NCBI GenBank assembly: GCA_016125475.1 | Contig: WGLR01000003.1 | Span: 71,945-135,944, forward strand | Reading direction: 5' to 3' | Length of the DNA: 64,000 nucleotides | Source: Betaproteobacteria bacterium | GTDB lineage: Bacteria; Pseudomonadota; Gammaproteobacteria; Burkholderiales; Ga0077523 | Part shown: positions 17,520-44,747 of the stretch, one piece after another | How positions within the stretch are numbered: the stretch's first letter is position 1 | Layout of the letters: each line of letters begins with the position of its first letter | Position numbers and translations under genes: made by a program | Notes under the pieces: model-generated | The model's input: the letters and a program-made list of their open reading frames with translations, nothing else | The model's database searches: none | Told to the model about the DNA's origin: nothing

Positions 17520-18351
17520 GTCTCTCCTCTCCTTAGTGCCTGAACGAACGAAATTTCAGAACGCCAATCGACGTCGGTCTGGTCATAACGCGATGGCTGC
17601 CTCGCGAGATGACAGCAAGCTGTCCGGTACGCGATCTTCCGGACGGCACGCCGACTCGGACGGTCCGGTTGCGGCGACGCGAATGTGCGCCGCCGTCGTG
17701 CGGTGACCCCCGTCCTTCGAGTGCGAGGTGGGGGTCGAGTTTGCCAGCGTTTGACGTGCCGATGTCCGCCGGATCGTCATCGCAGAGGCGCGCGGCGTCC
17801 GTATCGGCTCGAATCGCGGGACGGCGTCGTCGTGCCCCGACCCCCGCGTGCTCCCCGGCCTTCGATCCCGACCGGTCCCCGGGCGTGCACCGTGACGCCC
17901 GGAGCGGGGGGGGCCGCGGATGCTCCGGAACCGGGGAATTCGGCGAGTCGTGACCCCTTCACATGGTCCTCCGGCCCGCACGCATGGGCGGGACGACGCT
18001 CCGGGCCCTCGTCGTGACACGTCGGCACTGCGGCTCCCGACCGCGCCGGACCGTATGAAGGAACTCATAGGTCGGTCCTCGCGACCGCATGGGCCCATGG
18101 TGCTTCATGCCGTTGTCGTTCGGCGCGGCGTGCACGAAAAACGACAACCCGGCCAGTCCCTTACCGGGAAGTCCTCAGACTTCAGGACACGAACGTTCCG
18201 GCCTCCGGAGCAGTGAATACAGCATGCCGGATGCATGCGGGACACGGGTGTAGCCAGAAGGAGACGCGTTGACGGGAGGTTCGCGTGGTGTCATGGTGCA
18301 AACATACTTACAAGAAGCTGTCGTTGCTGATACTCGGTGGAGACCACTCTC
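17520..18351. other. 832-bp intergenic region before the giant gene
   Basis: No credible gene: the nominal frames are arginine-rich shadows. A ribosome-binding-like GGTGGAG lies 9 bp before the ATG at 18352. CATACT at 18303-18308 is a possible -10, but no good -35 is at the right distance (TTGACG at 18269 is too far). Small hairpins occur near 18160-18185. The long leader may hold regulatory sites for the giant gene. Confidence 0.5.
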
Positions 18352-30300: not shown

Positions 30301-33300
30301 ACCACCGAGTCCGACATCGTCACGATCGCACTCGTGAGCTTCAACTCGATCAAGCCGACGATCCACAACAGCCACGTCGTCGATGCCTATCTCGGACCGC
30401 GCGCGGGCAACGACGCGAACGGCGACGCGGGCAGCATCGACGTGAGCGGCGCGCTCAATGTCCGGGCCGGGCAGGTCGATGCGGGCAACCGTGTGAGTCT
30501 CGACGCCGTCTCGGTGTCGTTCGGACTCGTGAACGGCGCCTCGGTGCGCCCGGACGTGCTTGCGGGCGGGCAGACCCTCGCGCACCTCGGCGGGCATTTC
30601 GACATTCACGCGGGTGCCGTGAACGTGACCGCGAGTTCGCCCGACAACGATGCCACGAGCAGCTCGTTCTCGCTCGACATCGGGCTCGTCAACGCGGGCG
30701 GCGGGACGACTCCCGTGCGCGTCGCGCACGAGACGTCGGCCTATGTTGCGGACGCGGCCGACATCTCGGTCACGGGCGGGCCGGTCGCCTTGCTTGCCGA
30801 GGGCGACGGCGACGCGCACGCCGACAGTTTCAGCGTGGACGTCGGGCTCGTCGGGGTCGCGTCGCTCGCGGCGGAGGCGACGGTCGAGGGCACCACGCGC
30901 GCGTACGTGGGTTCGAACGCGTCCCTGACCGCCGCCGGTGCCGTCTCGATGACGGCCCGTGCGCTCGACGTGAGCGCCGCGACCGCACTCTCCTCGGTCG
31001 GCGTGAGTCTCGTCGAGGCGCCGTCGCTCACCCCGACGTCGACCACGGCTCACACCGTCGAATCGTTCGTCGCCGGCGGCGCGAACGTCGATGCGGGCAA
31101 CGTCACGATGGCGAGCACGCTCGGCGCCAGGGCGGATGCCGACGTCGACACCGTGAGCATCGGCCTCGTGTCGATCGGCAGCGTGACCCCGACCGCGCGC
31201 GCCCAGGACATGGTGCGCACGTTCGTCGATGGATCCGTCTCGAGCGCCGCGCTCACGATGGGTGCGACCGGCACGCGCACGAGCGATGCGAACGGGCACG
31301 TCGTCTCGGTCGGGCTCGTCGGCGGGGCGGACGCTGATCCGACCGCTGAGACCACGGGTGACACGCAGGTCTGGTTCGGCTCGGGGTCCCAGGTCACGGC
31401 GACGGGCAACGTCAGCGCGACGGCGACAGCGAACAACCTGGCCAATGCAAAGGGCGCGGCGGGCGCCGGAGGGGGCTTCGCCGACGGGACGCTGGATTCG
31501 ACCGCGACACTCACGGGCGGCACGACGGCCTATCTCGATTCCGGGGCACACGTCCTGCAGTCCGGCAACTTCGAGCTGCGCGCCTCCGCGATCAATACTG
31601 CCAAGTCGGACACGGTCGCGGGTTCGGGCGGCTTCATGGCCGTCCAGGGCGCGCAGTCGACGACGACCGTCACGCCCACGGTCGAGGCCGTGATCGACAA
31701 CGACGTCTCGATGGACAACGTCGGCGGCAGTATCACGGTACATGCGGAATCGGTGCGCGCCGAAGGCGACGCGAACGCAAGCGCGTCCGGTGGCGGGTTC
31801 GTCCAGGTGGGTGCCGCCGCGAGCGACACACGCGTGACGCCGACCGTGAACGCCTACATCGATACGGGCACCACGATCGACGCGGCCGGCTCCGTGACCG
31901 TCGAGGCGATCGCGCGCAATCAGTCGTCCGGTCCGCTCGGCGACACGTTCACGCCGGATTCCGGGACCATCGACTCGGACACGATCACGTTCACGCAGCA
32001 CGGACTCTCGAACGGCGACCGCGTCGAGTATGACTCCAACGGCAACCCGGCGATTCAGACGGCCGACGGCGGCACGCTCTCGAGCGCGCGCGACTACAGC
32101 GTGATCGTGACGGGCGAGGACACGCTCCAGCTCGGTACCGTGTTCGTCGCGACCGGTGCGGACACGGGAGACCCGCTCGGTTCTGCGTCGGGTGTGGACG
32201 ATGCGCGGGATCGCATCGTGTTCGCCGTGCCCCACGGCTTCGAGACGGGCGACGCCGTGAAGTACACGGCCGATGGCATTTCGATCAGCACGGATCTGAA
32301 CGGAACCGATACCTACTACGTGCGCGCGCTCGACGACCACGCGATCAAGCTCTACACCGACCGCGACGAAGCGATCGGCTCGGGCGCGTTCGCGGACGAC
32401 GTCTTCCTGCCGTCGCTGGCGGTCGATTCCGCGGCCGACACGCTCACCGTCCTCGGCAGCGGTTACGCCGAGAACCAGCGCATCACGTACGAGGCTGCAC
32501 CACCCGCCGAGTTCACGAGCGAGTCCGTCGACATCAGCGTGGCGGGCAACGTCGGCACACCGACCAACAACGACGAGATCTACATCCCGTCGCACGGCTT
32601 CGGCGTCGGCGACCGCGTGATCTACCGTGTCGAACCCGGAGGCACGCCGATCGGCGGTCTGACTTCCGGGTCCATCTACTTCGTGATCGTGATCGACGCG
32701 AATCACATCCAGCTCGCGGCCACCCGGGATGCGGCCGATCCCGACGACGCGGACGACGACGTGCCGATCACGCCCATCGCGCTGGCGCCCGACAAGGGGT
32801 CGCCCGCCAACCAGGAACGTCACCTGCTGGTGCGCGAGTCCGTCGGGGGTCTCGAGGACGGCGTCACCTATTACGCCCGCAACGTCTCCGGCGACACGTT
32901 CCAGGTCGCGACGGAAATCGACGGTACCCCGATCACGAACCTCGACGGTGACGGCCGCGTCGGCCTGCACCGGTTCGTGCGTCCCGGCGTCGATCTCGTC
33001 GGCCGCAGCGGCACGCACAGCCTGCGTCTGGATCTCACCTCGGCTCCGGGCGGCAGCCACCTGCTGCTCGGCCCGGAGGGGGTGTCCCTGCGTACGCTCT
33101 CGCCGCCGGCCGGCGACGGCCAGAGTTCGGCGTCGGCCAAGGGCGGTGGTGGCGGCTTCGTCGCTTACGGTCATCCCGACGCGGACCTGCGTCAGAACCA
33201 GAACGTTCAGGCCTTCATCGCGCCGTCGCTGCTCGAGGCGGGTGGCGACGTGATGGTGCTGTCGAGTTCGTCGGTCGACACGTCGACGTACGTGCGCAAC

Positions 33301-36300
33301 GGCGGCGGCGGTTTCGTCGCGGTCGGCGACGCCGATGCGCGCGGCAACGTCACGCACAACAACCGCGCCTACATCGGCGTCGACGACGGCAGCGGCAACA
33401 TCGTCGGCGACGGCGTCGTGATCGAGGCGGACGGGCATCTGAGCGTCTCGGCCGAGTCGTCGGTCGACACGACGATCACGTCGAAGTCGACGGCCGGCGG
33501 CTTCGTGGCGGACGCGAATGCGGCCTCGCGTGGCTTCCTCGACGACGAGACTCAGGTCGTCGCGGGCTCGAACGCGAACGTCTCGGCGCGCAGCATCTCG
33601 CTGCGGTCGGAGTGGTCCCATCTCGATTTCACCTTCGATTCGCACGGCTCGGCGGGCGGACTGTTCGGGGACTCCGACGCGACCTCGAGCGGGGATGTCG
33701 ATCCGCACGCGACCACGGCCATCCGCGCCGGCGCACAGCTCACGGGGCGCGAGGGCGTGGACGTGCGCGCGGTGCTCGACGACGCGGACTTCGTCGAGGA
33801 CGTGAACGCGAGCTTCACGGGTCTCGGGGACGGCGACGAGCACCGGAACGCGGACTATCACCCCGAGACGCTGATCGATGCCGATCCGGGTGCTGTCGTG
33901 ACGGCCGGACCCAGGCTCTTCCCGGTGGCGGGCGTCCCGCCTGCGGACGTGACGCCGCTCGAGCAGCCCCCCGGCTTCGACCGGCTGGCGCTGTTCACGG
34001 AGATCGATGCCGAGGACGGCACGCGCGACATCGCCTGGGACTCGAACGTGGTGCTGCTCTCCGGTCCGAGCCCCGACCTCGTCGTCGGCCCCGACGGGCG
34101 CATCGTGAAGGCCATCAACGTCAGCGTGACGGGCGTCGGCAGCAACATCGGCACCTACGTCGATCCGGACGGCGACGGGCAGTTCTTCGTCGACGACATC
34201 ATCAACCGGAACGATCGCGGGCAGGCGCTCTTCCGGTCCAACGACACGGGCGACTCGACGATCGCGACCGCGCTCGCCAACGGTCCGCTGTTCACGTTCC
34301 GCGAGACCTACGAGAAGGTCGACATCCTGAACCAGTCGGTTCTGGACATGGGCATCAACGACATCGAGGTCGTGAACACCTTCCTCGTGTCGCCCGAGGA
34401 CGAGGTCACGATCGAGGTCGACGACGTGGGCGGCTTCGGGTTCGACGTGAACCACGACTTCAGGCCCACGCACATCACGATCCAGGCCACGAACCCGGCG
34501 CCGTCGCCGAACCTGCTGCCCGACATCACGTTCTTCGGCGTCGTCAACAATCCGATCGGCATGACCGACGTGTTCGACGCGCGCGGCGACATCCTGTCGA
34601 GCCTGCCGGGCGGCGGGGAGTTCCCCACCCCGAGCGGTCTCATCCGCACGGACAGCTTCCGCATCGAGGCCGTCGAGGGGAATGTCGGTCGCACCGACCT
34701 CCAGCGCCTGCGGCTCGAGATCGTGGAGAGCAACGACGGTCCGACCGCCGCAGCCGATCGCTACCGCACCTCCGACGCGGGCGGCCGGAACTACATGGAA
34801 CTCCGCGGCCTGTTGCGCCGGTCGCTGGTGGGTACCGAAGGCACGACCGGTTTCAACACCGACGTCGAGCGAATCCGGTCCGGGAGCGCACGGTCGACGG
34901 ATGTGAACCTCAAACTTCTGAACGGCCTCCTCCAGCCGACCGTCGTGCCCGGACCCTACGAGATCGAGGTGTTCGAGAACGCGGCGGTCGTCGACACGTT
35001 CGCGACGCCGGTCGGCATCACGAGCCCTCCGAACCGCACGACCACCGTCACGGACCATTTCACGGTCTCGCCAGGCACTGTGCCCACGGTCTTCCCGCGC
35101 GGGGTGTGGGGCGCGGGTAGCGGTACGGTAGAGGTGCGATACGTGATCGGCACGCCACTTGACCCGGATCGCCGCATCATCAGCGGCGCGAACATCGACA
35201 TCCTCGGGATCACCGACGCCTCCGGCCTGCCGTTCATCAACCTGCTCGCCTGGACCGACATACTCGGGCAGGGCAACATCGATACCACGACGAACGGCAA
35301 CATCACGATGACCGAGGAGGTCGGCGACTTCCGGATCGGCTACATCGAATCGACGAACCGCAACGTCGTGCTGATCGGCCGTCAGGCGGACATCATCGAT
35401 GCCCCGGACGAGGAAGCCACCCCGGCAGTGGGCACGATCGTGGACGTCGAGGGCATCAACCTGATGTTCTCGGCGCCGCTTGGTCACGTGGGCACGTTCG
35501 AGAACCCGCTGGAGATCAATTCGTCTTCGCCGAGCAGCGGCGCGGTCACGGGCGACGCATTGTCGGACATCGTGCTGATCGAGCTTGGCACGCTCAACGT
35601 CGACCGGATCCGGTCCCACGACGGCGATGTCTCGCTGCTCGCGCTCGACGGCAGCATCCTCGACTATTTCGACGACGCGGCGGCCGACGTCATCGGCGTG
35701 AACCTCTTTCTCACGGCAAACGGGACTTCGATCGGTCAGAACACGAACGATCTCGAGATCGACTCGTCGACCGTCCGGCCCGGCCGCCTCGCCGCACGCG
35801 CGAACAATGCGATCTACATCACGGAGACGGAATCGTCGCTGAACGTCCAGAGCGCGATCGCCCCGGGCGGCCCCGTGCGCCTCACGGTGCCGGACACCGA
35901 AGCCACCGACGAGGACCTGATCCTCATGGAAGGCGGGCTCATCTTCAGCAACGAGACCGACATCACGCTGAACGTCGGCGACGACGTCGACACGCGGCTC
36001 GGCAGCGCGATGTTCGCGGCGCAGGAGATCTTCATCAACGGCGACTATGGCGACCGCGATCCCGGCACGGGCTCGCGCGTCGTGCTGCGCGGCGCGACGA
36101 TCGCCGACCAGATCACGGTGACCACGCTGCGCGACGACGACGAGGTGCGGATCGAGAACGGCGCCGAGCACACCCGGATCCTGACCTCCGGCGGGAACGA
36201 CCTCATCTTCGGGTCCGACGCGGGCAGCGACGATCCGGACCTCAACGACACGACGTACTTCGGCGACTACATCGACGCCGGCCCCGGCGACGACCGCATA

Positions 36301-39300
36301 TACGGCCTCGGTGGCGCGGACACGATATACGGGCGTGCTGGCAACGACTACATCGAAGGCGGCGCGAATGGCGACTTCATCGACGGCGGTGCGGACGACG
36401 ACGTGATCCGCGGCGGGTTCGGCAACGACCTCCTTCACGGCGGAGGCGGCAACGACGACATCGACGGCGGGCGAGGGGGCGACTTCATCTACGGCGAGGA
36501 CGGTGACGACCAGATAGACGCCGGGGGCGGCACGTTCAACATCATCGACGGCGGCGCCGGGGACGACGTGATCCGTGGCTCCGACGAGGGCGCCGACGGC
36601 ATACTCGGCGGGGAAGGGCGCGACTACATCTTCGGCCTCGCGGGCAACGACGTACTCGTGGGCGGCCCGGGTGCCGACGTGATCGACGGTGGCGAGGGCG
36701 ACGACTTCATCCAGGGCAGCGCGGGGCCGGACGTGCTCGTCGGCGGCGCGGGCAACGACCAGCTCTTCGGCGACGACAACGTTGCCGGCGACGACAACGC
36801 CGTCGACTACCTTTACGGCGACTACGGTACGAACCTCGGCGAACCCGGTTCCGGGCGCGACCGTCTGGACGGGCAGGGCGGCAACGACGTCGAGTTCGGC
36901 GAGGGCGATGACGACCAGATCAACGACGTGCTCGGCGCGTCGAACCTCATCGATGCCGGCCCCGGAGACGATCCCACGACGATCGTGCTCGCGCCGGTGA
37001 CACCGAACCCGGTACCGGCGGTTTCGCCCGACGACCCGTTCGCGGTCGACACGCTGCCGCTCGGACCGACCTACGCAGGGTGGTGGGCCGAGCTTGCAGG
37101 CTCTGCGACCAGCTTCGGCCTCTCGGGAGGCGTCGGTGCGGCGCTCGACACGGCGGTGGCCGTGGGCGCGGACGGCACCCGGTATGCGGCGTGGTCGGAT
37201 TCACGCAACGGCAACTACGAAATCTACGTCGCGCACGAAGCGGCGAGTGGATGGGAGATGCTCGGCGGGTCTGCGGCCGGGGGCGGCGTGAGCGATTCGC
37301 AGACCGACTCGCGCCGGCCTGCGATGGTCGTGGTCAACGGTTCTCCGTGGGTCATCTGGACCGAATCGACTGCCACCGGCCAGGACGTCATGGGCGCCCG
37401 CTACGATGCCGGCACGGACACGTGGGTCACGCTCGGCAACTCCCTGCTGCCCGGCGGCATCAGCAACACGGCCCATGCGGATCAGGCGCAGATCATCGAT
37501 GTCGGCGGCCGGGTCGTGGTGAGCTGGATCGACACGAGCGTCGTGGCGTCGGTGTACGTGCGGGTCTTCACGGGCGCGAACTGGGTCGAGCTCACGCCCG
37601 GGTCCGCAACCGGGCTCGGCGTCACGCAGTGGCAGCCCGGCGTGGCCGAGTACGACATCGCGACCGACGGGACCAACATCGGTGTCACCTGGAGCAGTGG
37701 ATTCGCCGACGACGTCGACATCTACGCGCGCGTGCTGCGGGCGGGTGCCTGGGTGGGCCTCGGGGCGTCCGTCGACCCGGGCGGCCTGTCCGCCTCCGTG
37801 ACCGAGAGTCGCGAGCCCGACGCCGCGTGGCTCGACGGTCAGCTCTATGTCGCCTACCGCGAGCGCGTCAACGACTACGAGCAGATCTACGTCAGGACCT
37901 TCGACGGCAAGAGCTGGGTGAGCGCCGGTATCGATGGCGCCGTCGGCAACGGTGTGAGCAACACCGCACGTCGGACGCTCGATCCGAAGCTAGAGTCCGG
38001 CGGTGGCGAGATGTTCCTCACGTGGGTCGATCACGACAACGCGGACTATGCCGATCCGGACGCGCGCATCTACGCGAAGCGCTGGAACGGCAGCCGGTTC
38101 GTCGAAACGCTGCCGGGCGATGCGACGGGCGGCGGCATCAGTGCGACGGGTGGCAAGCTCTCCGCGATCGACCTCGCCGTGGGCGCCAACGGTCTGCCGG
38201 TCGTGGGCTGGACGGACGACTCCTCGGGCCTGCCGCAGGCGTATCTCAGGACCGTGACGGCGCTGCCGGGACAGACCTTCACCGCGAATGCGCTGACGGG
38301 CGTGCAGGCGATCCTCGACGCGAACGACCTGGGTGAAGGAGACGTGATCGTGCTCGCACCGGGCTCGTATGCGGGCTTCACGATCGGTTCGAACGACTCG
38401 GGTGTCATGATCCTCGGCGCCCAGGGGGACGCTTCGGTCGTGACGGGCGCGGTGAACATCCAGGCCGGCGCAGTGCTGCAGCGGCTCGACATCGAGGGTG
38501 CGATCACGATCGGTGCGGCCGCCGACGGCGTTGCGTTCGTGGACAACACGATCGGCGGCAACGGGCTCGTCCTGAGCAGTCTCGACGACGTCCGGATCCT
38601 GCACAACCGCTTCACCGGAACGAACGGCATTCGCATCGCTGCGGCGTCCGGGGGACTCATCGCGCACAACGACATCGGCGTCACCGGCACCGGGCTTGCG
38701 CTGGGTGCCGGGTTCACGGGCAGTATCCTCGACAACGACATCCACGGGGCGACCGTCGGCGTGCGGTACGGCGCGCAGGCGGCGCTCGGCGGGAACCGCA
38801 TCCACGACAACGACGTCGGCGTGCGGGCGACCTTCGGCGACAGCACGAGCGGGCTGGGTTTCGTCGCGGGCAGTATGACGAACGAGATCTCGGCGAACGC
38901 GACCGGTCTCGTGCTCGCCGGCGCCAGCGTGCAGGGCCAGCATGTCTTCGACAATCAGCAGGGCGTGTCGGGCAGCGGCGTGCTCGGAGGCTCGAGTCTC
39001 GACGACGCGAACCTCATCGAGGGCAACAACATCGGCGTGTTCGAGTTCGACGGCACGATCCGCTACAACCGCATCGGTTCGAACGGTACCGGCGTGCGTG
39101 CCGGGGCCGGTAGCGTCATCGAGCACAACGACATTTTCGACAGCAAGCTCGCGGGCATCGCCGTCGATGGCGTGTCGACCGTGCACATCGAAGCCAACAC
39201 GATGTATACGCTCGCCGGCGACCTCGTTCGCGTCACGGGTGGCGCGAGCGACGTCGAAGTCCTGCACAACACGCTCTGGACCGAGGACGGCTACGACCTG

Positions 39301-42300
39301 TTCGTCGCGAACGACTCGCAGGCGGGCTTCACCTCCGACTACAACAATCTCTATGCGACCGGCAACGGCAAGGTCGGCTTCTGGACGCGCGACTTCGTCG
39401 ACGTGCTCGACTGGCAGGCCGACATCGCGCGCTTCGACCTGCACTCGATCGGTGCGACGAGCGTCAATCCCGAATGGGCGCGTCCGCGCTTCGAGGATCG
39501 CGCCGGACATGGCTTCCTGCTGTTCCCGATGTCCGGTACCCAGCGGTTCACGTCACCTCTGAAGGCGCCCGACCCCGGCGTCGAGCACATCGCGCTGATC
39601 ACGCCCGACCTCTACGTCGACGCGATCCGCGACAGTGCGTTGCCGATCCGCTGGGAGAGCTCGGGCAACGCTGCCGATTCCAGCGTGAGGATCGATCTCT
39701 ACGGCGACACGTCGGACGGTCCGGCGTTCCTCACGACGATCGTCGCGGCGACCCCGGACGACGGCGAGTTCCTGTGGACGCCGGCCGCGAACGCGATCCC
39801 CTACGGCACGTACGGGCTGCGCATTCAGGTGTCCTGGGTCGACAATCCGCTCGTGCTCGATCGCAGCCAGGAACCTTTTACGGTACCAGAGGCCGGGACG
39901 AACTACTGGGTGGACGACCATTCGAACACCGACGACGAGTACACGCCGAACGGCATCGGCGACAACCGCAACACGGGCAAGCGTTCCGACGCCCCCAAGC
40001 CCTACGCGACGAACCTGCTGCGCGTCTACGACGTGACGCCCGGGTCGACCATCTTCGTGGACACGGGCGAGTACCCGATGATCGACCCCGTCGCGGTCTC
40101 GGGCAGTACGGACCTCGGTCTCGGGCTCGACGAGGGCTTCCTCCTTACCGGTCCGACGAACACGCTGCATGTCGCCGAACTGTTCCCGGCGATCGCCGGT
40201 GACCGGAGCCGGCCGCTGATCGAGTTGAACGACGCCGACGGTGTGGAGGTCGCGTATTTCGTGCTGCGCGACGCGCAGCGCGGCCTGCATGCCCACGGCG
40301 GTTCGGACGACCTCGCCGCACACGACATCGCGGCATTCGGTCACGCACTCGACGGCATCCGCCTCGAGACGTCCTCTCCGGGTAACGACTTCTCGGCGCT
40401 TCTCGGACACGACAACGGCGCATACGGCATCGTGATCGAAGGTGCGATCGGCACGCTCACGGGTTCGGGTGCATTCGGCAATCCCGGCGGGGGCGTGGTC
40501 GTCGACGGGGCACTCGACGAGGCGGTCGGCAACATCGTGCGCGACAACGGTGGATACGGGTTCGAGTTCCGCGACACCGGCGATGCCCTGATCCAGGGCA
40601 ACCTGAGCTTCGACAACGAGCGCGGCATGCTCGTCGACAACAGTGCGGCCGGTTCGACGCTCGTCGGGTCGAAGGATCTCGCGCCGGGCACGGCAAACCT
40701 GATCTGGAGCAACGACACGCTCGGTGCCGGGATCCTTGGCAACGTCACGTTCGCGGGCAATACGGTATCCGACCAGACCGGTGCGCTCGCGACGGGTCTC
40801 CAACTCGGGCAGGGCGCCGTCGCACTGTCGAACCTCGTATTCGGCAATTTCATCGGCATCGACGCGGCCGATGCGACCGTCCAGGCGAACCGCGTGTACG
40901 CGAACCTCGACACGGGCATTCGCGCGATCGCGAGCCGCGTGCTCGAGAACGTCGTCTACTCGAGCCCCGTCGGCATTCGCGCGTCGGGCGGCGGCGTGCT
41001 CGTGCGCAACAACCTCGTCTACGACACCGACGTCGTCGCCGTCACGCTCGTGAACGCACCGGCAGCGGACGTCGTGAACAACACGCTCTACGCCACGGTC
41101 GGCGACGCGTTGCGCCTCGAGCGCGGTTCGACGGGTGTCGACGTGCGGAACAACATACTCTGGTCCGAACAGGGATTCGGGATCCGGGTCGCGCCCGACG
41201 CACAGGCCGGCTTCACGTCGGACAACAACGTGTTCTTCCGGAACCTGTCTGGAACCGGCAACGTCGGCTTCTGGGACGGTGCTGCGAGACGAAGTTTCAT
41301 CGCCTGGTACGTCGCCTCGGGTACCGACGACGACAGCATCTTCGCGAATCCCCGCTTCGTCGACGTCGACGGCACGGACGGCATCCTCGGATTCTCGGCG
41401 GGCCTGAGCGATGGTCGCGACGACGACTTCCACGTCTTGAGCACCGTGGGCAGCTTCCACGGTGGCTCGCTCGCACCGGTCGAAGGGCCTTCGTTCCCCG
41501 GATTCCCCGGCGCTCCCGAACTGCTCACGGCGACCCTCACCGCCGACCTCGCGCAGTCTCCGGCCATCGATCGGGGTGATGAGGGTGATCCGTTCGCGAA
41601 CGAGCCCGCGCCGAACGGCGGCTACGTCAACGTCGGCGCCTACGGCAACACGCCGCAGGCGTCGCTGAGCCCGGCGCAGTACGTGCTCGTGATGGCACCG
41701 AACGGTGGCGAGGCGATCACGCAGCTCTCGACGTTCGACATCCGCTGGCGGCACGACGGCTTCGCGGGGCCCGTGGACATCGCCGTGTCGTCCTCGGGCG
41801 TCGGCGGTCCCTACACGACGATCGTGGTCGGAGAGACGAACGATGATCTCTACGAATGGACCGTGGATCCCGCACTGTTCGCGGCAGGCACCGATTACTT
41901 CGTGCGCGTCCGCGGGACCGCGATTCCCGGGCTCGCGGACCGCTCCGACTTCGCGTTCTCCGTCCTGCACGCGCCGCTCGTGGTCACGTCGGTCACGCCA
42001 GACACGTCCGGATTCGCGTTGCGCTTCAATCGCGCGATCGACACGAGCGTTCTGAATCTCTACGACGGTGCCGGCGGCGGGTTTGGTGCGCCCGATGTCG
42101 TGCTCGACGGTCCGTCGGGTGTCGTCCGCGGTTCGCTGCTGCTCGACGCGGACGCACAGGGCTTCTCGTTCGTGAAGACAGGCGGCCCGCTCGTCGCCGG
42201 CGACTACACGTTGCGTCTCGAGAGCGATGCGTCCGCGTTCGTCGATCTCGAAGGCTTCACGCTCGATGGCAACGGCGACGGCACGACGGGCGACGCATTC

Positions 42301-43707
42301 GAATCGACGTTCACGATGGCCCCACCGGAACCGTACGTGACCGTTGCCGACTTCACGCGTGGTCCCGAACAGGTGGCCGATACGCCGACGGCGACTGGCG
42401 GTGTGCCGATCCGGCTAGTGGGGGCAGCGTCCGTCACGACGGTCACATTCGAAGTGCACTTCGACCCGGCACTGCTCGATGTCACGGGTGTCGAGAGTCC
42501 GGCCGGCGGCACGGCCACGGTCGACCTCTCTATGGCGGGCGTGGCCATCGTCGACGTGACGTTCGACGCACCGACGAGCGGGGCGGACCTCGAACTCGCA
42601 CGACTCGTCGGCACGGTGCCCGCGACGGCGCCCTACGGTGCGAAGCAGCGGGTCGACATCCGCAACGTCGCGGTCGACGGCGGCGCGGTGGCGGTGCAGG
42701 CAGACGACGGCATGCAGGTCGTCGGCTACGCGGGCGATGCGACGGGCGAAGCCCGCTACTCCGCACTCGACGCGCAGCGCATCCAGCGCGTGATCGTGCG
42801 GCTCGACACGGGCTTTGCCGCCTGGCCGCTCACGGACCCGCTGCTCGTCGGCGACGTCAACGGGACGGGACGTCTCGAGTCGATCGACGCGCTGCTGGTC
42901 CAGCGCAAGATCGTGGGCATTCCCGTTCCGCAGATTCCCGACCTTCCCGCGACACCGCCGGCCGTGTTCCGCAGCGGCCCCGACCCGCTGCTGTCGCTCG
43001 GCGCTGCACGGAGCGCGGTTCCGGGCGAGACCATCACGGTGCCGGTGAATCTCGACACCGCGGCGGGTCTCGAGTCGGCCCAGCTCAGGATCGCCTACGA
43101 CCCCGCGGTGCTCGAGGTCGTCGACGTCCGGCGCGGGACTCTGACGGGTGACTTCGGATGGTTCGTGACCGCGGACGAACCCGGCGAACTGCTCGTGGAC
43201 ATGAGTCGGGCGTTCCCGCTGGAGGGTGGCAGCGGCAGTGTCGTCGACGTCGACTTCCGCGTGAATCCCGGCGCGGCGGACGGCCGCCATGCGATCGACC
43301 TCGAATGGGCTGCGCTCAACGAAGGGGGCCTCACGCTGAACCCGGCCCCGCAGGCCGGTGTGGATCCGACCGACACGAGCGTGCGCGTGACGAATCCGGC
43401 GCCAGCGTCAGCGGTCCCGTCGCGCGCCAGCGAGGAAGTCGCGATCGTCGGCGCGATCGGGAACCCGGCCGGCTTCACGATGAACCTCGAGCGTCCCGCG
43501 CTGCCGCCCGTGGCGACGGCGGCCCTCGAGGCGTTCACGAGAGCGCGGGGCGATCGACCACCGACGGGCGAGTCGGACGGGTCCTGGGCACGGGATCTCG
43601 CGAAGAAACTCGATCGCAGGGACGCCGTTCACGACCAGGACTGGAAGATCAGGATTCCGACGGTGCGGGAAGTCGCGGAGAGCGTCGTTTCGAAGATCCG
43701 GCGCTGA
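18352..43707 (+). CDS. Giant LEPR-XLL repeat surface protein (about 8,451 aa) with RTX, beta-helix and cohesin/dockerin domains
   Basis: ATG 18352 follows GGTGGAG; a GTG 15 bp earlier is less likely. Architecture by residue: 1-48 basic leader without a normal signal peptide; 49-61 FELLEPRLLLSAD, the LEPR-XLL motif known from giant bacterial proteins; about 370-5180 degenerate Ala/Thr/Val-rich beta repeats, with inserted NGDxVxY modules; 5180-5960 irregular beta regions; 5967-6210 some 18 RTX-type nonapeptides (GGAGNDQLF); 6240-6640 a propeller-like segment; 6640-7070 and 7184-7770 right-handed beta-helices; Ig-like domains near 7090-7180 and 7780-7985; a cohesin-like domain 8000-8117; a dockerin 8125-8193; a cohesin 8210-8347; and a SWARDLAKKL basic tail. 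The frame has no interruption. It is probably secreted and surface-bound, acting in adhesion or biofilm. No type I secretion genes are in the window. Confidence 0.93.
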   Translation: MKYRHVIARPRNGSFADAPRVLTDAIRRALRRDESADMPALARRKYPRFELLEPRLLLSADLTPLSPVAIAAPADATVTAESPPAFDSRLQACRAATSAQTLSQPVSAQRVLVDVDSTGAPASPAHVLLAAGPGDSLDGVLRLDQLDGTQTLQVFDAGSGELLAQHALDGGSAFIVRGGDLADRLRIDFDPAVLTRPLDILFDGGGGEDTLVGASRDTDWTVDGENAGQVEGVRFSDVEHLVGAIGNRDSFTVLASGSLSGGLDGGAGGFDTLVLGAGSFSSVVYEAWGPDAGTIARDGDRLRYAGLEPIVDNTVVADRVIFTSNLLDNAQLTDLGAQLMLASVGLPTFESITFARPTNSLTINLGGDPGIPFTADQLDIQAITLNADLTINGQAGTDAVTVSGDVDLGANPFVVNAEQITVNPGVDITAGDITFNAVAVLGTLGTPDTLPLANVAASISVNGATLTGANIALLANTSYVSSIASVGLVPAALLANVSAQVAVTGNSVITASGAFTATSTSSVNVTASGTAVAGLPGTEVAVAAPVVNTTTRARLSDNTSVSAVGAVTLAATSNAVLTTTASGVAAVATTGSTIATPTLNATTEAFIEDAASVTQSASLDVTATATGTLTTTADSTPAGAVLNPPTLAALGIATASGPQTIAAAFAATTVISTTRAYVDTTGSITSSGPVALIASSGFAINTNANATPTVNATNNGAAVATNATQILDEAYIDGSPTITTSSLDVRTGGGSTVNALARSGAAGFASLPVGTNAGALAQNANVPGGTGSLSHAYVAAGATVTLIGNTDVVVAAQNTTVMDASAEPEGAAVISDALGNGASVATNISAYSTLASVDPGASITGAHDFSLTADGDQTTTVSALAGALAGSDANALTVASSIAVNTTQALVDVGTVMTLAGTLTVRSNHRGSTVLRAASDAAAAQSAAPTTAQAPPVALNLGTDTADATVAGTVTAAGAISISADADVENEVEGVAGVQGGDPNTTTAGSLVANEIAFLANRANLTFGGAPTQPGTDPDVDTNNLFGLASNQTQGRAAAVGANFSTATSNAAVSSTAVLTSTGGAATVLATSDVDANALGSAGAVLNLVGIAAGIAVNVQTANTVSGIAGNVSANGIEVRSDVSGDGVHSLLADSVSGTGVQVAGVAGAVAETMSLGQSTAGVANGATLTLGNDTDLVIEANAVQDSVANAVPLVDAGTTAGVGASFEIAASVFQTVATLQDATITGADDVLVIANGHYTSTADARAGVSAGLGVGAAVAALLSNDTTTASITNSSTASSITGGLTVHANHVATATHSADASVTAAEVGAGAALSLGLIQGGAQASAGNRMDVGGLIDVAAVTQTDMDADAIASSAGTPSDVILATQVGLVLEQAFAALLPAFQVNPVTDVNGGADTLTIAGHGLTTGDRVKYSNGADDETIGDLSPSGLFNSYFVGVVDANTIRLYTSPEDAELGANAIDLEPTADVDNLHTIQPLVPVAVDDLISAGRLGTADGAVGTAAAAAFNFDFSTALASITAGANLSTTGDVTVSSTIDSRTDAFANGQAVDSGISLGVAAAGNVTSQSNRALIGGAVTASRIEVNALLGGDGVADFTARAISGGGDDADLGVAGAFAVNYSSPLLPLQSTYRIPIPSLPPIGPLPAPLPAITLPGLPQLPPVPTPTGGQNDAVVLSGANLTLLDGGDLVVRSEFQGDYEATTGATPQGSATVGVGPSVSGNAITQQTLAEIQDALITGTAIGDGIRSDIRVLATGDYDATADATAGATNAVNLPAAAALNYNDFNTIARTTNSPVSGTSLVSGDLVVHADHTANTTQSADTDSGVGGTASIGAALSLGYVLGGAEASSGMRIGSGATPVRTVSILANNDSHLDSAAFSGQSGVENDPAGNVVTEEIEAQIEGLLALAGAGEIPEDVIRVLQRASAETADGPIGAAAAVAMNLDYGSSSASLADGGQLTTALSPVVAATGDMDATATADAGTVGAASGLGVAVAINVDGQLIESAIGGDVTAPSITLQTVTSGDGTNSFDAVARSGAGAEDIGVAGAFALNVSGNPRDILEGTATGGGQQVARVAEGSTLTLGSGNDLTVTANYTGNYVATATAAPLAGVTLGIGPSVALNAIQHDTIAEVAADAITNADDVNVTANGTYLSTTFALAGADSPGALPAAVALTGSLNDTIARVRPGASTSDIGGNLVVTANHTATANTTADAAAGGVEVGLGAAVAAGGPLGGARADGGGNMNVAGDVTVHANTDSDANTDALTSERGTLRGGLRTDAETERQFQRLTVILGVDDILYPFLDPNPPLAGEFDPASGIDDATDTITIQVPNEFDTGDAVVYHDNQDDTSVPGLVDGSAYFVSVDPLHPGQVRLHATHTDALAGTNPIDIAPFADVEDVHSINAERTFDPSTSVDDAADTIDVGEFSGLVNGDAVKYFNGGGDNIDGLDDGGLYYVHVDDSNPSALSIQLFRSRADAFAQTGALDLDGSVATGSAHVVAKVVDAYHERDFTFDPVADIDDGKNVFTRIAGQLDTGDSVIYHDNGDAAAVGGLTDGDTYFVRIFTNDDGDKVMSLHATRDDARHGNNRIDIAPLVASDVRHTLEPGFDLDLSTIDSGDDRIDFSAFEVKNGEAVIYRNGGGTSIGGLTDDTVYYVKKKLGRDIELRYTPDGDAIDLDASVATGSAHRLERVIVDGPYIPQFRFGGAAAIAASAGRPVSDASIGAGANISAGNVDVLASMDFNGDADADARAIGGVASFGLAAAGSYTEGEHVAEIGDGATVTADTISLVATGPGGIPFDYAADAASGALSLGGNLVGSATVNGMRNLTAVRVGDDATVTTGGRLDLLVNLARDGNGFVDLNRERSRASSGEAAFNLLAAAGAAVAGTVTLDGDRNEASIGNGAVVTAPDGVEVRAKANHDFENRAIGGSLSLVFAAAAGGAFTWVNTDTVAEVNGSVSAADGDLNVRATTDVSYSPEALGLAAAGVLAIGGAFEGNFVANTTRAGIGGDGTIDVDAVNVTAVDTSTFDVDPGALAASRVGAVGAAIGINDVSTTTEAFISGATVHTDVGDVEVSARTSLDVDAAGIGFAIAGVIGAYGTLTVNTVDATTSAVIDAGAQVDTVGDMLVAALDDSLIVANAGGLAVSDFIGAGLSYAKSKVDSEVEALVDGEMTAVSASGSVTVRARFEPSVRATAVGFTVGPFVAASGGIALAETGGEARAAILDGASVTAGGALTVNATSTTTPEATAGGFAGSEFAAAGMMIAETVAGHTAHAEATGTISASGLDVVATATRTGDADANFLGIAVFTGAVGFEAEHATGDTEAVIGEGADIEITGGGDINVSATSTETLDPDIVNLAAGVFTIGAQAASALSESSTRASVSGRTRARNTTVGANANKSVAATTNIINFNILSLNGILLSKLEGVLPEKLAIPVDPPFDTVATATIEGDTEAYLGDGADVGSTGALSVTADSTNHALSNVLTAGATFVNVSDTASQATVNGSTAMHIDEGATIDVGSLTSTANSTNDATAGADYAGAAGVNVSLGDVTAKTNHTTEAYLGPAKGSSAGNGPATSLTIDTGGLNLDATSHNTAFVPQVTVDASLVTVEKVKPEADAGGATRAHVGGAFDIFADGVNATADSTNEATSQAVSFELNLVDVDLTERSAHTSHTTEAFVGPRAQLDITGGGLALDADSGNHAAIDQVSPIDLGAVDLNFVKSTAEAGGSTSAYVAEGSTLSASGGLAANANADNAAEVNRFAFSASVFALQEARPVAKTTHAVSAYVGPAAGDDPNAGLSGTITLGGALDLSATSRNDASVDEVSVELSLVGVDLVKPEITTGGTTRTFVGGNYTVNASGVTGHADATNTAGSDTVPIKIGLVEVTEVRTEIRTTHETEAFVTRDADFDVNGGGIALSATSRNTAELDRFEFGASLVSVETFKPTLETAGATRAYVEEGAVVQAGSLSLDADAANSATTESDIVTIALVSFNSIKPTIHNSHVVDAYLGPRAGNDANGDAGSIDVSGALNVRAGQVDAGNRVSLDAVSVSFGLVNGASVRPDVLAGGQTLAHLGGHFDIHAGAVNVTASSPDNDATSSSFSLDIGLVNAGGGTTPVRVAHETSAYVADAADISVTGGPVALLAEGDGDAHADSFSVDVGLVGVASLAAEATVEGTTRAYVGSNASLTAAGAVSMTARALDVSAATALSSVGVSLVEAPSLTPTSTTAHTVESFVAGGANVDAGNVTMASTLGARADADVDTVSIGLVSIGSVTPTARAQDMVRTFVDGSVSSAALTMGATGTRTSDANGHVVSVGLVGGADADPTAETTGDTQVWFGSGSQVTATGNVSATATANNLANAKGAAGAGGGFADGTLDSTATLTGGTTAYLDSGAHVLQSGNFELRASAINTAKSDTVAGSGGFMAVQGAQSTTTVTPTVEAVIDNDVSMDNVGGSITVHAESVRAEGDANASASGGGFVQVGAAASDTRVTPTVNAYIDTGTTIDAAGSVTVEAIARNQSSGPLGDTFTPDSGTIDSDTITFTQHGLSNGDRVEYDSNGNPAIQTADGGTLSSARDYSVIVTGEDTLQLGTVFVATGADTGDPLGSASGVDDARDRIVFAVPHGFETGDAVKYTADGISISTDLNGTDTYYVRALDDHAIKLYTDRDEAIGSGAFADDVFLPSLAVDSAADTLTVLGSGYAENQRITYEAAPPAEFTSESVDISVAGNVGTPTNNDEIYIPSHGFGVGDRVIYRVEPGGTPIGGLTSGSIYFVIVIDANHIQLAATRDAADPDDADDDVPITPIALAPDKGSPANQERHLLVRESVGGLEDGVTYYARNVSGDTFQVATEIDGTPITNLDGDGRVGLHRFVRPGVDLVGRSGTHSLRLDLTSAPGGSHLLLGPEGVSLRTLSPPAGDGQSSASAKGGGGGFVAYGHPDADLRQNQNVQAFIAPSLLEAGGDVMVLSSSSVDTSTYVRNGGGGFVAVGDADARGNVTHNNRAYIGVDDGSGNIVGDGVVIEADGHLSVSAESSVDTTITSKSTAGGFVADANAASRGFLDDETQVVAGSNANVSARSISLRSEWSHLDFTFDSHGSAGGLFGDSDATSSGDVDPHATTAIRAGAQLTGREGVDVRAVLDDADFVEDVNASFTGLGDGDEHRNADYHPETLIDADPGAVVTAGPRLFPVAGVPPADVTPLEQPPGFDRLALFTEIDAEDGTRDIAWDSNVVLLSGPSPDLVVGPDGRIVKAINVSVTGVGSNIGTYVDPDGDGQFFVDDIINRNDRGQALFRSNDTGDSTIATALANGPLFTFRETYEKVDILNQSVLDMGINDIEVVNTFLVSPEDEVTIEVDDVGGFGFDVNHDFRPTHITIQATNPAPSPNLLPDITFFGVVNNPIGMTDVFDARGDILSSLPGGGEFPTPSGLIRTDSFRIEAVEGNVGRTDLQRLRLEIVESNDGPTAAADRYRTSDAGGRNYMELRGLLRRSLVGTEGTTGFNTDVERIRSGSARSTDVNLKLLNGLLQPTVVPGPYEIEVFENAAVVDTFATPVGITSPPNRTTTVTDHFTVSPGTVPTVFPRGVWGAGSGTVEVRYVIGTPLDPDRRIISGANIDILGITDASGLPFINLLAWTDILGQGNIDTTTNGNITMTEEVGDFRIGYIESTNRNVVLIGRQADIIDAPDEEATPAVGTIVDVEGINLMFSAPLGHVGTFENPLEINSSSPSSGAVTGDALSDIVLIELGTLNVDRIRSHDGDVSLLALDGSILDYFDDAAADVIGVNLFLTANGTSIGQNTNDLEIDSSTVRPGRLAARANNAIYITETESSLNVQSAIAPGGPVRLTVPDTEATDEDLILMEGGLIFSNETDITLNVGDDVDTRLGSAMFAAQEIFINGDYGDRDPGTGSRVVLRGATIADQITVTTLRDDDEVRIENGAEHTRILTSGGNDLIFGSDAGSDDPDLNDTTYFGDYIDAGPGDDRIYGLGGADTIYGRAGNDYIEGGANGDFIDGGADDDVIRGGFGNDLLHGGGGNDDIDGGRGGDFIYGEDGDDQIDAGGGTFNIIDGGAGDDVIRGSDEGADGILGGEGRDYIFGLAGNDVLVGGPGADVIDGGEGDDFIQGSAGPDVLVGGAGNDQLFGDDNVAGDDNAVDYLYGDYGTNLGEPGSGRDRLDGQGGNDVEFGEGDDDQINDVLGASNLIDAGPGDDPTTIVLAPVTPNPVPAVSPDDPFAVDTLPLGPTYAGWWAELAGSATSFGLSGGVGAALDTAVAVGADGTRYAAWSDSRNGNYEIYVAHEAASGWEMLGGSAAGGGVSDSQTDSRRPAMVVVNGSPWVIWTESTATGQDVMGARYDAGTDTWVTLGNSLLPGGISNTAHADQAQIIDVGGRVVVSWIDTSVVASVYVRVFTGANWVELTPGSATGLGVTQWQPGVAEYDIATDGTNIGVTWSSGFADDVDIYARVLRAGAWVGLGASVDPGGLSASVTESREPDAAWLDGQLYVAYRERVNDYEQIYVRTFDGKSWVSAGIDGAVGNGVSNTARRTLDPKLESGGGEMFLTWVDHDNADYADPDARIYAKRWNGSRFVETLPGDATGGGISATGGKLSAIDLAVGANGLPVVGWTDDSSGLPQAYLRTVTALPGQTFTANALTGVQAILDANDLGEGDVIVLAPGSYAGFTIGSNDSGVMILGAQGDASVVTGAVNIQAGAVLQRLDIEGAITIGAAADGVAFVDNTIGGNGLVLSSLDDVRILHNRFTGTNGIRIAAASGGLIAHNDIGVTGTGLALGAGFTGSILDNDIHGATVGVRYGAQAALGGNRIHDNDVGVRATFGDSTSGLGFVAGSMTNEISANATGLVLAGASVQGQHVFDNQQGVSGSGVLGGSSLDDANLIEGNNIGVFEFDGTIRYNRIGSNGTGVRAGAGSVIEHNDIFDSKLAGIAVDGVSTVHIEANTMYTLAGDLVRVTGGASDVEVLHNTLWTEDGYDLFVANDSQAGFTSDYNNLYATGNGKVGFWTRDFVDVLDWQADIARFDLHSIGATSVNPEWARPRFEDRAGHGFLLFPMSGTQRFTSPLKAPDPGVEHIALITPDLYVDAIRDSALPIRWESSGNAADSSVRIDLYGDTSDGPAFLTTIVAATPDDGEFLWTPAANAIPYGTYGLRIQVSWVDNPLVLDRSQEPFTVPEAGTNYWVDDHSNTDDEYTPNGIGDNRNTGKRSDAPKPYATNLLRVYDVTPGSTIFVDTGEYPMIDPVAVSGSTDLGLGLDEGFLLTGPTNTLHVAELFPAIAGDRSRPLIELNDADGVEVAYFVLRDAQRGLHAHGGSDDLAAHDIAAFGHALDGIRLETSSPGNDFSALLGHDNGAYGIVIEGAIGTLTGSGAFGNPGGGVVVDGALDEAVGNIVRDNGGYGFEFRDTGDALIQGNLSFDNERGMLVDNSAAGSTLVGSKDLAPGTANLIWSNDTLGAGILGNVTFAGNTVSDQTGALATGLQLGQGAVALSNLVFGNFIGIDAADATVQANRVYANLDTGIRAIASRVLENVVYSSPVGIRASGGGVLVRNNLVYDTDVVAVTLVNAPAADVVNNTLYATVGDALRLERGSTGVDVRNNILWSEQGFGIRVAPDAQAGFTSDNNVFFRNLSGTGNVGFWDGAARRSFIAWYVASGTDDDSIFANPRFVDVDGTDGILGFSAGLSDGRDDDFHVLSTVGSFHGGSLAPVEGPSFPGFPGAPELLTATLTADLAQSPAIDRGDEGDPFANEPAPNGGYVNVGAYGNTPQASLSPAQYVLVMAPNGGEAITQLSTFDIRWRHDGFAGPVDIAVSSSGVGGPYTTIVVGETNDDLYEWTVDPALFAAGTDYFVRVRGTAIPGLADRSDFAFSVLHAPLVVTSVTPDTSGFALRFNRAIDTSVLNLYDGAGGGFGAPDVVLDGPSGVVRGSLLLDADAQGFSFVKTGGPLVAGDYTLRLESDASAFVDLEGFTLDGNGDGTTGDAFESTFTMAPPEPYVTVADFTRGPEQVADTPTATGGVPIRLVGAASVTTVTFEVHFDPALLDVTGVESPAGGTATVDLSMAGVAIVDVTFDAPTSGADLELARLVGTVPATAPYGAKQRVDIRNVAVDGGAVAVQADDGMQVVGYAGDATGEARYSALDAQRIQRVIVRLDTGFAAWPLTDPLLVGDVNGTGRLESIDALLVQRKIVGIPVPQIPDLPATPPAVFRSGPDPLLSLGAARSAVPGETITVPVNLDTAAGLESAQLRIAYDPAVLEVVDVRRGTLTGDFGWFVTADEPGELLVDMSRAFPLEGGSGSVVDVDFRVNPGAADGRHAIDLEWAALNEGGLTLNPAPQAGVDPTDTSVRVTNPAPASAVPSRASEEVAIVGAIGNPAGFTMNLERPALPPVATAALEAFTRARGDRPPTGESDGSWARDLAKKLDRRDAVHDQDWKIRIPTVREVAESVVSKIRR
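25300..26460 (+). repeat. Four consecutive NGDxVxY modules inside the giant gene
   Basis: Protein modules of 75-90 aa follow the pattern DDATDTI, (N/T)GDAVxYxNGGG, IGGLxDGxxYYV, a variable strand, then a helix-like DAxxxxxxIDL and SVATGSAHxL. Copies start near 25330, 25620, 25920 and 26210. Single relatives occur at 22585-22830, 31960-32170, 32200-32390 and 32560-32790. The nucleotide sequences have diverged, so the expansion is not recent. Confidence 0.75.
28780..31500 (+). repeat. Alternating beta-repeat block in the giant gene
   Basis: About fifteen units of 60-75 aa alternate two short patterns: (G/A)GxTRAxVGG or TTEAFVGP followed by LALDADSxNxAxxD and VSFELxLVxVDL. This regular alternation suggests a long beta-solenoid or stalk. 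It is distinct from the looser repeats upstream (19450-28700). Confidence 0.7.
36250..36980 (+). repeat. RTX-type calcium-binding nonapeptide array
   Basis: About 18 GGxGxDxUx nonapeptides occur almost in tandem (for example AGPGDDRIY, GRAGNDYIE, GGGGNDDID, GGEGDDFIQ, GGAGNDQLF). In RTX proteins such arrays bind calcium in a parallel beta-roll and usually mark type I secretion. Here the array is internal, about 2,250 residues before the C-terminus, so it probably serves folding or rigidity rather than marking the end of the protein. Confidence 0.9.
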
Positions 43708-43826
43708 CGAGAGGATTGAACGGGGGCGAGACGCAGACTGGTCTCGGATCGGATCCCGCCGGGGGGCGCCGTCACGGAGACGACGGACGAACCCGGCGAG
43801 GTTTTCTTGCAGGAGGTGCGAAGACG

Positions 43827-44399
43827 ATGGGCCGTACGATGAAGACGGTATGCACGGTGGGTGTCCTCTGGACGCTCGGGGCGATGGCGGTCGACGCCGG
43901 CGCGGAGGTGTTCTACGGCGGGCATCCGAAAGGATTCCATGGCGACGAGGTGAACCTCACGATCAACGCACGCGCGGGCACGTTCCTGGAAGGGATCGAC
44001 ATCACACCGGATCCCACGGACGTTGCGGGCGTCCTGGACTTCCTCTCGCTGGACACGACGAATGCGCTGACCGATGGCGGCAGCGGGCTGTGTTTCGGCT
44101 CGTCGTGCTCGTTCTTCTACCTGACCGGGAAGACGTTCACCGATGACACGGTGCTCGCCACGCTGCGCTTCCGCGTGGAGGACGCTGCACCCGTCGGGCC
44201 GGTGGCATTCGATCCCCAGGTGGTGGTCGGTGTCGATTCGATGCCGATTCCGAACGGGCAGGGGTTCGAGGTGCTCGCGGTGCCGGAGCCGGGAACCTGG
44301 GCTTCGTTCGCCGCGGGGATTGCCCTGATCGGTGCGCTGCCGTGGTGGCGGCGGTATCGGTCGTCGAACGTGGGCAGGGCACTCGCGTCGCGGCACTGA
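43827..44399 (+). CDS. PEP-CTERM protein with a cohesin-like domain
   Basis: ATG 43827 has a near-ideal AGGAGGTG site. The 190-aa protein has a signal peptide (to about residue 26, AMAVDAGAE) and then a compact beta-sandwich: GDEVNLTINARAG, LEGIDITPDPTDV, LATLRFRVEDAAPVG, followed by VVVGVDSM. This strand order resembles cohesins. Two cysteines (LCFGSSCS) could form a disulfide. The C-terminus is VPEPGTWASFAAGIALIG with WWRRYR, a PEP-CTERM signal for exosortase anchoring. It begins 120 bp after the giant gene, so cotranscription is possible. A role as a surface partner of the giant protein's dockerin is attractive but unproven. Confidence 0.8.
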   Translation: MGRTMKTVCTVGVLWTLGAMAVDAGAEVFYGGHPKGFHGDEVNLTINARAGTFLEGIDITPDPTDVAGVLDFLSLDTTNALTDGGSGLCFGSSCSFFYLTGKTFTDDTVLATLRFRVEDAAPVGPVAFDPQVVVGVDSMPIPNGQGFEVLAVPEPGTWASFAAGIALIGALPWWRRYRSSNVGRALASRH

Positions 44400-44690: not shown

Positions 44691-44731
44691 TCGGCGAATG
44701 GCCCGCCTCGTTCGCTCCTGCCACCCCCCGC

Positions 44732-44747
44732 TCACGCGATCGCGTGA
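44732..44747 (-). terminator. 16-bp perfect palindrome after livF
   Basis: TCACGCGATCGCGTGA is a perfect inverted repeat 6 bp beyond the livF stop. It could act as the end of the liv transcript or as a protein-binding site. There is no T-run. Confidence 0.35.

Follow-up and report, generated by a model that had tools for sequence, protein, structure and literature searches.

A giant protein with a cohesin-dockerin-cohesin end beside a small PEP-CTERM protein: a possible non-cellulosomal docking arrangement in a betaproteobacterium

The giant protein and its C-terminal modules

The window, a stretch of 64,000 nucleotides of a betaproteobacterial genome, carries an uninterrupted reading frame for a giant protein, followed on the same strand by the gene of a small PEP-CTERM protein (Table 1). 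The LEPR-XLL motif of the giant was recovered in the genome search at C26:90437-90499, and the C-terminal tail is, judging from its sequence, a candidate export signal. When the two halves of the giant were scanned with Pfam (E up to 1 / 0.01), no cellulase-type or carbohydrate-binding family was returned, which fits the designation "non-cellulosomal" given in the preliminary description.

Table 1. Features of the giant protein and the small downstream gene (positions in the window)
Feature	Position	Strand	Evidence
Giant protein, 8,456 aa, GTG start	18337..43707	+	Uninterrupted ORF
LEPR-XLL motif close to the N-terminus of the giant	18493..18555	+	NF012209, 23.5 bits, cut-off 17
RTX calcium-binding nonapeptide, best of seven stretches in the giant	36607..36711	+	PF00353, E 3.7e-27
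Right-handed beta-helix region of the giant, best of five stretches	40855..41247	+	PF13229, E 9.6e-25
Conserved domain 5' of Coh1, Ig-like by appearance only	41977..42330	+	Alignment A2, five giant ends, same genome
Cohesin 1 (Coh1)	42331..42723	+	AlphaFold model; second Pfam stretch
Dockerin, loops DATGEARYSALD and DVNGTGRLESID	42736..42913	+	Pfam, genome search, alignment, AlphaFold, profile match
Cohesin 2 (Coh2)	42985..43398	+	PF00963, 46.1 bits; AlphaFold model; Foldseek
C-terminal tail of the giant, WARDLAKKL...DWKIRIP, candidate export signal	43585..43704	+	Other proteobacterial giants have similar tails
Shine-Dalgarno-like AGGAGGT, 9 nt upstream of the 43827 gene	43811..43817	+	Sequence
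Small protein of 190 aa, cohesin-like, carrying a PEP-CTERM signal	43827..44399	+
PEP-CTERM sorting signal	44277..44354	+	PF07589, 22.4 bits, cut-off 20.7

The order cohesin-dockerin-cohesin at the C-terminus of the giant (42331-43398), proposed earlier from the letters, was borne out by Pfam, by profile searches in which this end matched solved cohesins and dockerins, and by AlphaFold, whose model (pLDDT 95.5 for the three-module chain) set the limits of the modules. In the Pfam scan, Cohesin (PF00963) matched in two stretches with 61.9 bits (E 9.9e-17) and Dockerin_1 (PF00404) in two stretches with 22.1 bits, slightly below its cut-off of 22.9; scored with its in-frame neighbours, the dockerin reached 35 bits, above its cut-off. 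The six-frame genome search placed Coh2 (46.1 bits) above and Coh1 (21.9 bits) below the cut-off of 24.1.

The calcium ligands of the dockerin, the absence of which the preliminary description had named as evidence against it, are present. The outer aspartates of the two loops are encoded at 42736, 42769, 42853 and 42886; loop position 1 is Asp in both loops of all 65 related giant ends, and position 12 is Asp in 65/65 and 64/65 of them, respectively, the exception being a gap.

The small PEP-CTERM protein and its recurrence beside giants

The downstream gene had been described as encoding a small cohesin-like protein sorted by an exosortase. The sorting part was supported by a PEP-CTERM signal over its cut-off and by a single exosortase gene found genome-wide (E 1.1e-67). 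The cohesin fold, supported for the modules of the giant, is only moderately supported here: neither Pfam nor PDB sequence searches found a cohesin in the product itself, but one of the four members of its family matches PF00963 (E 9.2e-4), a weak profile match links it to Coh2 (probability 20.6%), and Foldseek with its medium-confidence model (pLDDT 67.9) placed cohesin-containing entries in all of the top 12 PDB rows, integrins following at rank 13. These superpositions are loose (query TM-score 0.34-0.41 and rmsd 4.6-9.1 over the first 12 rows, except for one that lies below). Among 13 small proteins scanned, only five matched PF00963 at E up to 1.

In some relatives, too, the small protein stands next to a giant. 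Of 300 genomes of the order, five have strong matches to the 43827 family, all downstream of a giant (the window, G016:C9, G002:C28, G109, which is the same DNA as L045, and G148). More broadly, 18 of 61 usable giant ends are followed by a small PEP-CTERM-type gene. Where position 9 of loop 2 is Glu or Gln, 7/7 ends have this neighbour, vs 11/54 of the others; both this link and the adjacency counts are confounded by common descent. The same screen found no such gene in 300 control windows taken farther downstream at the same loci (126 on the same strand, 174 on the opposite one). The four invariant Asp columns across the 65 homologues and the recurring neighbour gene together argue that the layout is more than chance, and we call it a variant of non-cellulosomal cohesin-dockerin systems.

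Export route and possible docking partners

LEPR-XLL giants co-occur with an operon encoding a GAF-HlyD protein, a PqqD-M50-HlyD protein, a SecA paralogue and a second adaptor; the M50 gene is present in all 27 strong LEPR genomes vs 5 of the 273 others. It is possible that this SecA-paralogue/M50/HlyD operon is the export machine of the giants. That the giant is instead an RTX adhesin of the usual kind, secreted by a type I system and in no need of an anchor, we consider very improbable: it does carry RTX repeats, and two of the source genome's ABC exporters reach 441 and 407 bits with an LssB-type model, but the LEPR-XLL motif keeps company with this different export-type operon, and none of 86 matches to TIGR03375, the type I transporter model searched, attained the curated cut-off of 693.1 bits, the control genomes likewise giving no positive above it.

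As to what the dockerin binds, it may dock on a cohesin of the giant type, whether Coh1 or Coh2 of the same molecule or a cohesin on a neighbouring giant, the latter yielding homotypic polymers, and the small protein would then be a separate part, perhaps in capping or nucleation. Coh1 adjoins the dockerin in 65/65 aligned ends (gathered with a profile containing both modules; in one, L071, only the beginning of loop 2 is visible), the pTM of 0.87 for the three-module model suggests a fixed mutual arrangement, and the source genome holds five giant ends of this type. Fusion of the dockerin to its own cohesin, together with the 43 of 61 usable giant ends (three of five in the source genome) for which the screen found no small PEP-CTERM-type neighbour, makes such docking a live rival; yet Coh2 occurs in only 28 of the 65 ends, and the frequent PEP-CTERM-type cohesin-like gene behind the giant would go unexplained. 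We regard it as rather unlikely. Less probable still is that the modules merely cap a secreted repeat protein as structural elements stabilised by calcium and have lost binding, the small protein having another role. The window's own loops do belong to the rarer variants, with Thr and Glu at positions 3 and 5 of loop 1 and at positions 5 and 9 of loop 2, respectively, but the neighbour gene that keeps recurring and the strictly conserved loop aspartates favour a kept interaction, even if folding alone could preserve the latter.

The reading we tentatively prefer, at close to even chances, is that an exported giant is held through its dockerin by the exosortase-sorted small protein. The giant would be a calcium-rich surface protein, probably exported by the SecA paralogue, the M50-type membrane protein and the HlyD-type adaptors encoded elsewhere in the genome, and its cohesin-dockerin(-cohesin) block would form a rigid docking unit folded by calcium. 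The exosortase would sort the small protein to the cell envelope, where it may offer a cohesin-type socket to the dockerin of the giant. The recurrence of this layout in some relatives suggests, through the predicted binding, a means to fasten giant proteins to the cell.

Docking-type modules of the giant and its PEP-CTERM neighbour

The window (G000:C26:71945-135944, in a source genome of 4.88 Mb on 48 contigs) encodes a giant protein of 8,456 aa that opens with a LEPR-XLL motif (NF012209, 23.5 bits against a cut-off of 17) and contains filamentous tandem repeats (NF012206) as well as, by Pfam, seven stretches of RTX repeats (PF00353) and beta-helix stretches. The cohesin-dockerin-cohesin end ascribed to it in the preliminary description was borne out by Pfam, by profile comparison with solved structures and by an AlphaFold model (coordinates in the table below). 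The Pfam check for cohesin (PF00963) in the giant was clear (E 9.9e-17); scored apart, the second cohesin (Coh2) reached 46.1 bits, over the cut-off of 24.1, and the first (Coh1) 21.9 bits, under it, while the dockerin (Dockerin_1, PF00404) scored 22.1 bits, just under its cut-off of 22.9, and passed it at 35 bits when summed with its neighbours. A profile of 65 homologous ends, which remained of 73 giant-end loci once one without a match (L074) and seven duplicates among the other 72 had been set aside, matched cohesins of known structure at a best E of 1.6e-8 and dockerins of known structure such as 2ccl_B at 2.7e-5; Coh2 was found in 28 of these ends. The model of the three modules is confident (pLDDT 95.5, pTM 0.87) and Foldseek returned cohesins for it, with target TM-scores up to 0.75; the lowest E-values belonged to a cohesin pair whose superposition was poor, and no dockerin chain was among the best 50 matches listed.

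The outer calcium ligands of the dockerin loops were also kept, the invariant columns D136, D147, D175 and D186 of the 65 ends falling on the first and the last ligand position of each loop. Asp occupies position 1 in all 65 ends in both loops, and position 12 in 65/65 (loop 1) and 64/65 (loop 2). Asp or Asn at positions 3 and 5 as well was seen in 30 ends for loop 1, 32 for loop 2 and 15 for both, and neither loop of the window dockerin follows this stricter pattern.

Downstream of the giant, the 190-aa small protein carries a PEP-CTERM signal that stands on PF07589 (22.4 bits against 20.7) and falls just under the cut-off of TIGR02595 (15.9 against 16); the source genome encodes one exosortase match (PF09721, 229 bits). 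That the giant's end or this sorting signal might be a misreading was considered and rejected. The cohesin-like character proposed earlier for the small protein held in part: Pfam found no cohesin in it, and neither the protein itself nor its alignment retrieved a match when PDB sequences were searched, but structural comparison pointed to cohesins. Although its model is of modest confidence overall (pLDDT 67.9; residues 31-130 at 70-88), its best 12 PDB matches were all cohesin-containing entries (E 1.5e-6 to 5.1e-4, query TM-scores about 0.35-0.41), followed by an integrin. It is 48, 43 and 54% identical to three relatives, with two cysteines invariant among them; of the four family members, one matches PF00963 (E 9.2e-4). 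When 13 small proteins (12 encoded after giants and one from elsewhere in the source genome, some of them Pfam-called cohesins) were combined, their profile recovered the giant's Coh2 at 94.6% probability, against 20.6% for the four-member family by itself. On weaker evidence than for Coh1 and Coh2, we take the small protein as a divergent cohesin.

A consensus scan found no promoter between window positions 43500 and 44760, and the sole terminator-like site found lies after the small gene; nothing unusual was found in the folding of the gap between the two genes (z -1.33). Behind the small gene (window 44497-44738), a GC-rich sequence of 18 nt occurs in two imperfect copies (89%). The table also lists further PEP-CTERM proteins of the source genome, the last of which scored faintly as a cohesin (13.2 bits, E 0.27) and gave no Pfam cohesin at E up to 0.1.

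Features of the window and related features of the source genome (G000)
Feature	Position	Strand	Remark
End of preceding giant	window 8-1090		Frame of 12,327 aa; cohesin-dockerin and same kind of tail as window giant
PEP-CTERM protein	window 8790-9668	-	
PEP-CTERM protein	window 10745-11674	+	HELGHAMNLGH motif, metalloprotease-like (by eye)
Giant	window 18337-43707	+	
Coh1	window 42331-42723	+	
Dockerin	window 42736-42913	+	
Coh2	window 42985-43398	+	
C-terminal tail	window 43585-43704	+	
Small PEP-CTERM protein	window 43827-44399	+	
Third small PEP-CTERM-type protein	L034:2837-3439 (G000:C26 near 167900)		Not beside any giant end found
Operon: GAF-HlyD, PqqD-M50-HlyD, SecA paralogue, RND-type adaptor	L142:919-7952 (G000:C27)		Behind C27 giant and small gene
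Second operon copy	about G000:C22:187250-193520 (L144)		RND-type adaptor examined on C27 copy

Recurrence of the gene pair

A pattern scan found at least 31 loci in named genomes, and those listed comprise, by their titles, 18 betaproteobacteria, 7 Planctomycetota, 2 Sphingomonadales and one each of Lysobacterales, Methylomonas, Thiohalocapsa and Verrucomicrobiales; loci of Aquabacterium, Roseateles and Methylomonas, which are cultivable relatives, resemble the window in layout. Strong homologous giant ends are present in 12 of 60 genomes, namely the source, 10 of its 11 congeners and G016, and weak matches near 1e-5 in three more. The source genome has five LEPR matches above the cut-off in long frames (three on C26, one each on C36 and C43) and five giant ends that can be aligned across the preceding domain, Coh1 and the dockerin; the protein running off the end of C36 reappears at the start of C27, so that these two contigs probably hold one giant.

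Four ends with less than 500 nt of sequence beyond the giant (L116, L140, L062 and L063) were removed, which left 61 usable unique ends, locus L156 standing outside both counts. A small PEP-CTERM-type gene follows the giant in 18 of the 61, two of the five ends in the source genome among those that have one, and is lacking in 43. The screen motif was looser than PF07589, accepting VPEA, VPLP and VPAP forms, and a nineteenth locus that passed it (L058) was removed by eye as having no PEP-type motif. The 18 include neighbours that are not clearly cohesins, at L105 (460 nt away), L138 (whose PEP-CTERM match is sub-threshold, Pfam at E up to 0.1) and L139; a 672-aa PEP-CTERM protein after L114 exceeded the length limits and was left uncounted. 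Applied further downstream in these loci, the same screen returned 0 of 126 same-strand and 0 of 174 opposite-strand windows. The 62 PF07589 matches in the source genome give a rough chance density of 0.4% per locus, from which no binomial figure is to be taken at face value because the loci are related. As most giant ends have no small neighbour, adjacency alone is not enough support for a pairing. Among 300 genomes of the order, the family of the window's small gene is strongly matched in five, and in all five the gene lies behind a giant; a sixth match is weak and lies mostly over the sorting end.

A PEP-CTERM-type neighbour is present in 7/7 giants with Glu or Gln at position 9 of dockerin loop 2 as against 11/54 others (Fisher 7e-5), a comparison set up after the loops had been inspected. 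This residue may be part of a recognition code, common descent being an alternative explanation. Other genes near the giants include one for a DUF3467 protein (PF11950, L050:7773-8084) after the giant in Gallionellaceae loci and, by eye, a DUF3467-like gene behind the PEP-CTERM gene of the Lysobacterales locus (L044 at about 8551).

An operon and a C-terminal tail associated with the giants

In the operon on C27, the SecA paralogue is clear (SecA_DEAD, E 1.5e-78); the PqqD-M50-HlyD protein falls just under the Pfam cut-off for M50 (25.7 against 27.2), and its best NCBIfam match, daptide_HExxH (2.7e-45), is below cut-off. The GAF-HlyD, PqqD-M50-HlyD and SecA types were also read behind giants in Roseateles (L059) and Methylomonas (L046), and the adaptor alone stands behind several further giants. 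The PqqD-M50-HlyD gene (E <1e-100) is present in 12/12 genomes with strong giant ends against 3/48 others of the 60. Among 300 genomes of the order it was found (E up to 1e-60) in 27/27 with a LEPR match at E up to 1e-4, a cut picked after the data had been seen, against 5/273 others; loosening the LEPR cut to E 0.01 gives 28/39 and 4/261. In the source genome it lies on C27 and C22 and is absent from C26, where the small gene is followed by ABC-transporter matches on the opposite strand (C26:116725-118202). The giant's RTX repeats are a trait of type I secreted RTX adhesins; for the LssB-type transporter model of such systems (TIGR03375), none of 86 matches in the source genome exceeded the cut-off (best 441 of 693 bits), and neither did any match in 14 control genomes.

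Many proteobacterial giants end in a tail made of a Trp-Asp motif and a short strand-like hydrophobic stretch; the pattern matched 20 of 62, the broader resemblance being judged by eye, and Planctomycetota giant ends do not show the tail. This shared tail is a candidate export signal. In genome G059, a LEPR frame of 10,327 aa adjoins the same operon and ends in a similar tail, and its last 1,043 aa (L145:7873-11001, minus strand) contain RTX repeats and, by Pfam, no cohesin or dockerin; the tail may thus belong to the operon's giants and not to the docking modules. Between this giant and a GAF-HlyD-like gene identified by eye lies a gene of the SapC family (PF07277, E 1.1e-73; L145:6899-7687, minus strand).

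Possible modes of docking and relation to known systems

Most likely, the giant would be exported by the operon of SecA paralogue, PqqD-M50-HlyD protein and HlyD/RND-type adaptors and fastened through its dockerin, which would be held in the exosortase-sorted cohesin, the pairing being inferred. The main rival is that the dockerin docks within its own chain or from giant to giant, since Coh1 and the dockerin are fused in one block whose model is confident and rigid. Extended from the window to LEPR-XLL giants at large, export and fastening would make them substrates of a distinct system (SecA paralogue, PqqD-M50-HlyD membrane protein and two HlyD/RND-type adaptors), with the bipartite tail as signal and a calcium dockerin in an exosortase-sorted cohesin as fastening, a generalization that we hold to be possible and rather doubtful.

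The arrangement is a new combination of known parts. NF012209 (LEPR-8K) proteins share with the window giant the N-terminal motif above cut-off and a very long repetitive chain; that model spans 24 positions near the N-terminus, and the docking end and operon lie outside it. Calcium-loop dockerins and cohesins are common to the cellulosome, whose solved parts were matched by structure and profile searches, and the anchored small cohesin protein would take the part of the anchoring scaffoldin. The latter relies on Gram-positive wall anchoring, whereas the small protein bears an exosortase-type sorting signal. The term non-cellulosomal agrees with the Pfam scans, in which neither half of the giant matched a glycoside hydrolase family or a carbohydrate-binding one; the cellulosomal plan of a scaffoldin with dockerin-bearing carbohydrate-active enzymes was not seen in the giant. 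Cohesin and dockerin modules outside cellulosomes were reportedly described by Peer et al. 2009, and the folds are common to the window giant; here, in contrast, the modules end LEPR-XLL giants and a PEP-CTERM cohesin-like neighbour recurs in some relatives.

ANME archaea combine cohesin, dockerin and archaeosortase/exosortase genes in one genome, as the source genome does, with a guessed role in cell contact, but the part of that account available to us counts domains and does not pair a giant with a sorted cohesin gene (PMC5244752). An Omnitrophota giant ORF with nine non-cellulosomal dockerins, a possible adhesin, resembles the window giant, although the available portion of its description does not mention an exosortase-sorted cohesin neighbour (PMC10066038). 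In the cellulosome-like complex of Cloacimonadota, as far as the accessible text goes, a C-terminal sorting domain retains a Gram-negative scaffoldin-like protein at the surface, where dockerin proteins dock on it; there the dockerins are on enzymes and the cohesins on a large scaffoldin, whereas in the window the dockerin is on the giant and a single cohesin-like domain on the small sorted protein (PMC8542988). In the open-licence literature, we found no work joining PEP-CTERM with cohesin, PEP-CTERM and exosortase with a giant, SecA, HlyD and M50 with PEP-CTERM, or SecA and HlyD with PqqD.

In our judgement, little is understood of the way in which two-membrane bacteria export and retain proteins of 8,000-14,000 aa. 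The role of cohesins and dockerins outside cellulosomes is, in the part of the ANME account available, likewise an open question (PMC5244752). The giant and its adjoining small gene provide a ready test pair for such a role, and the co-occurring operon is a candidate export machine that is open to knock-out.
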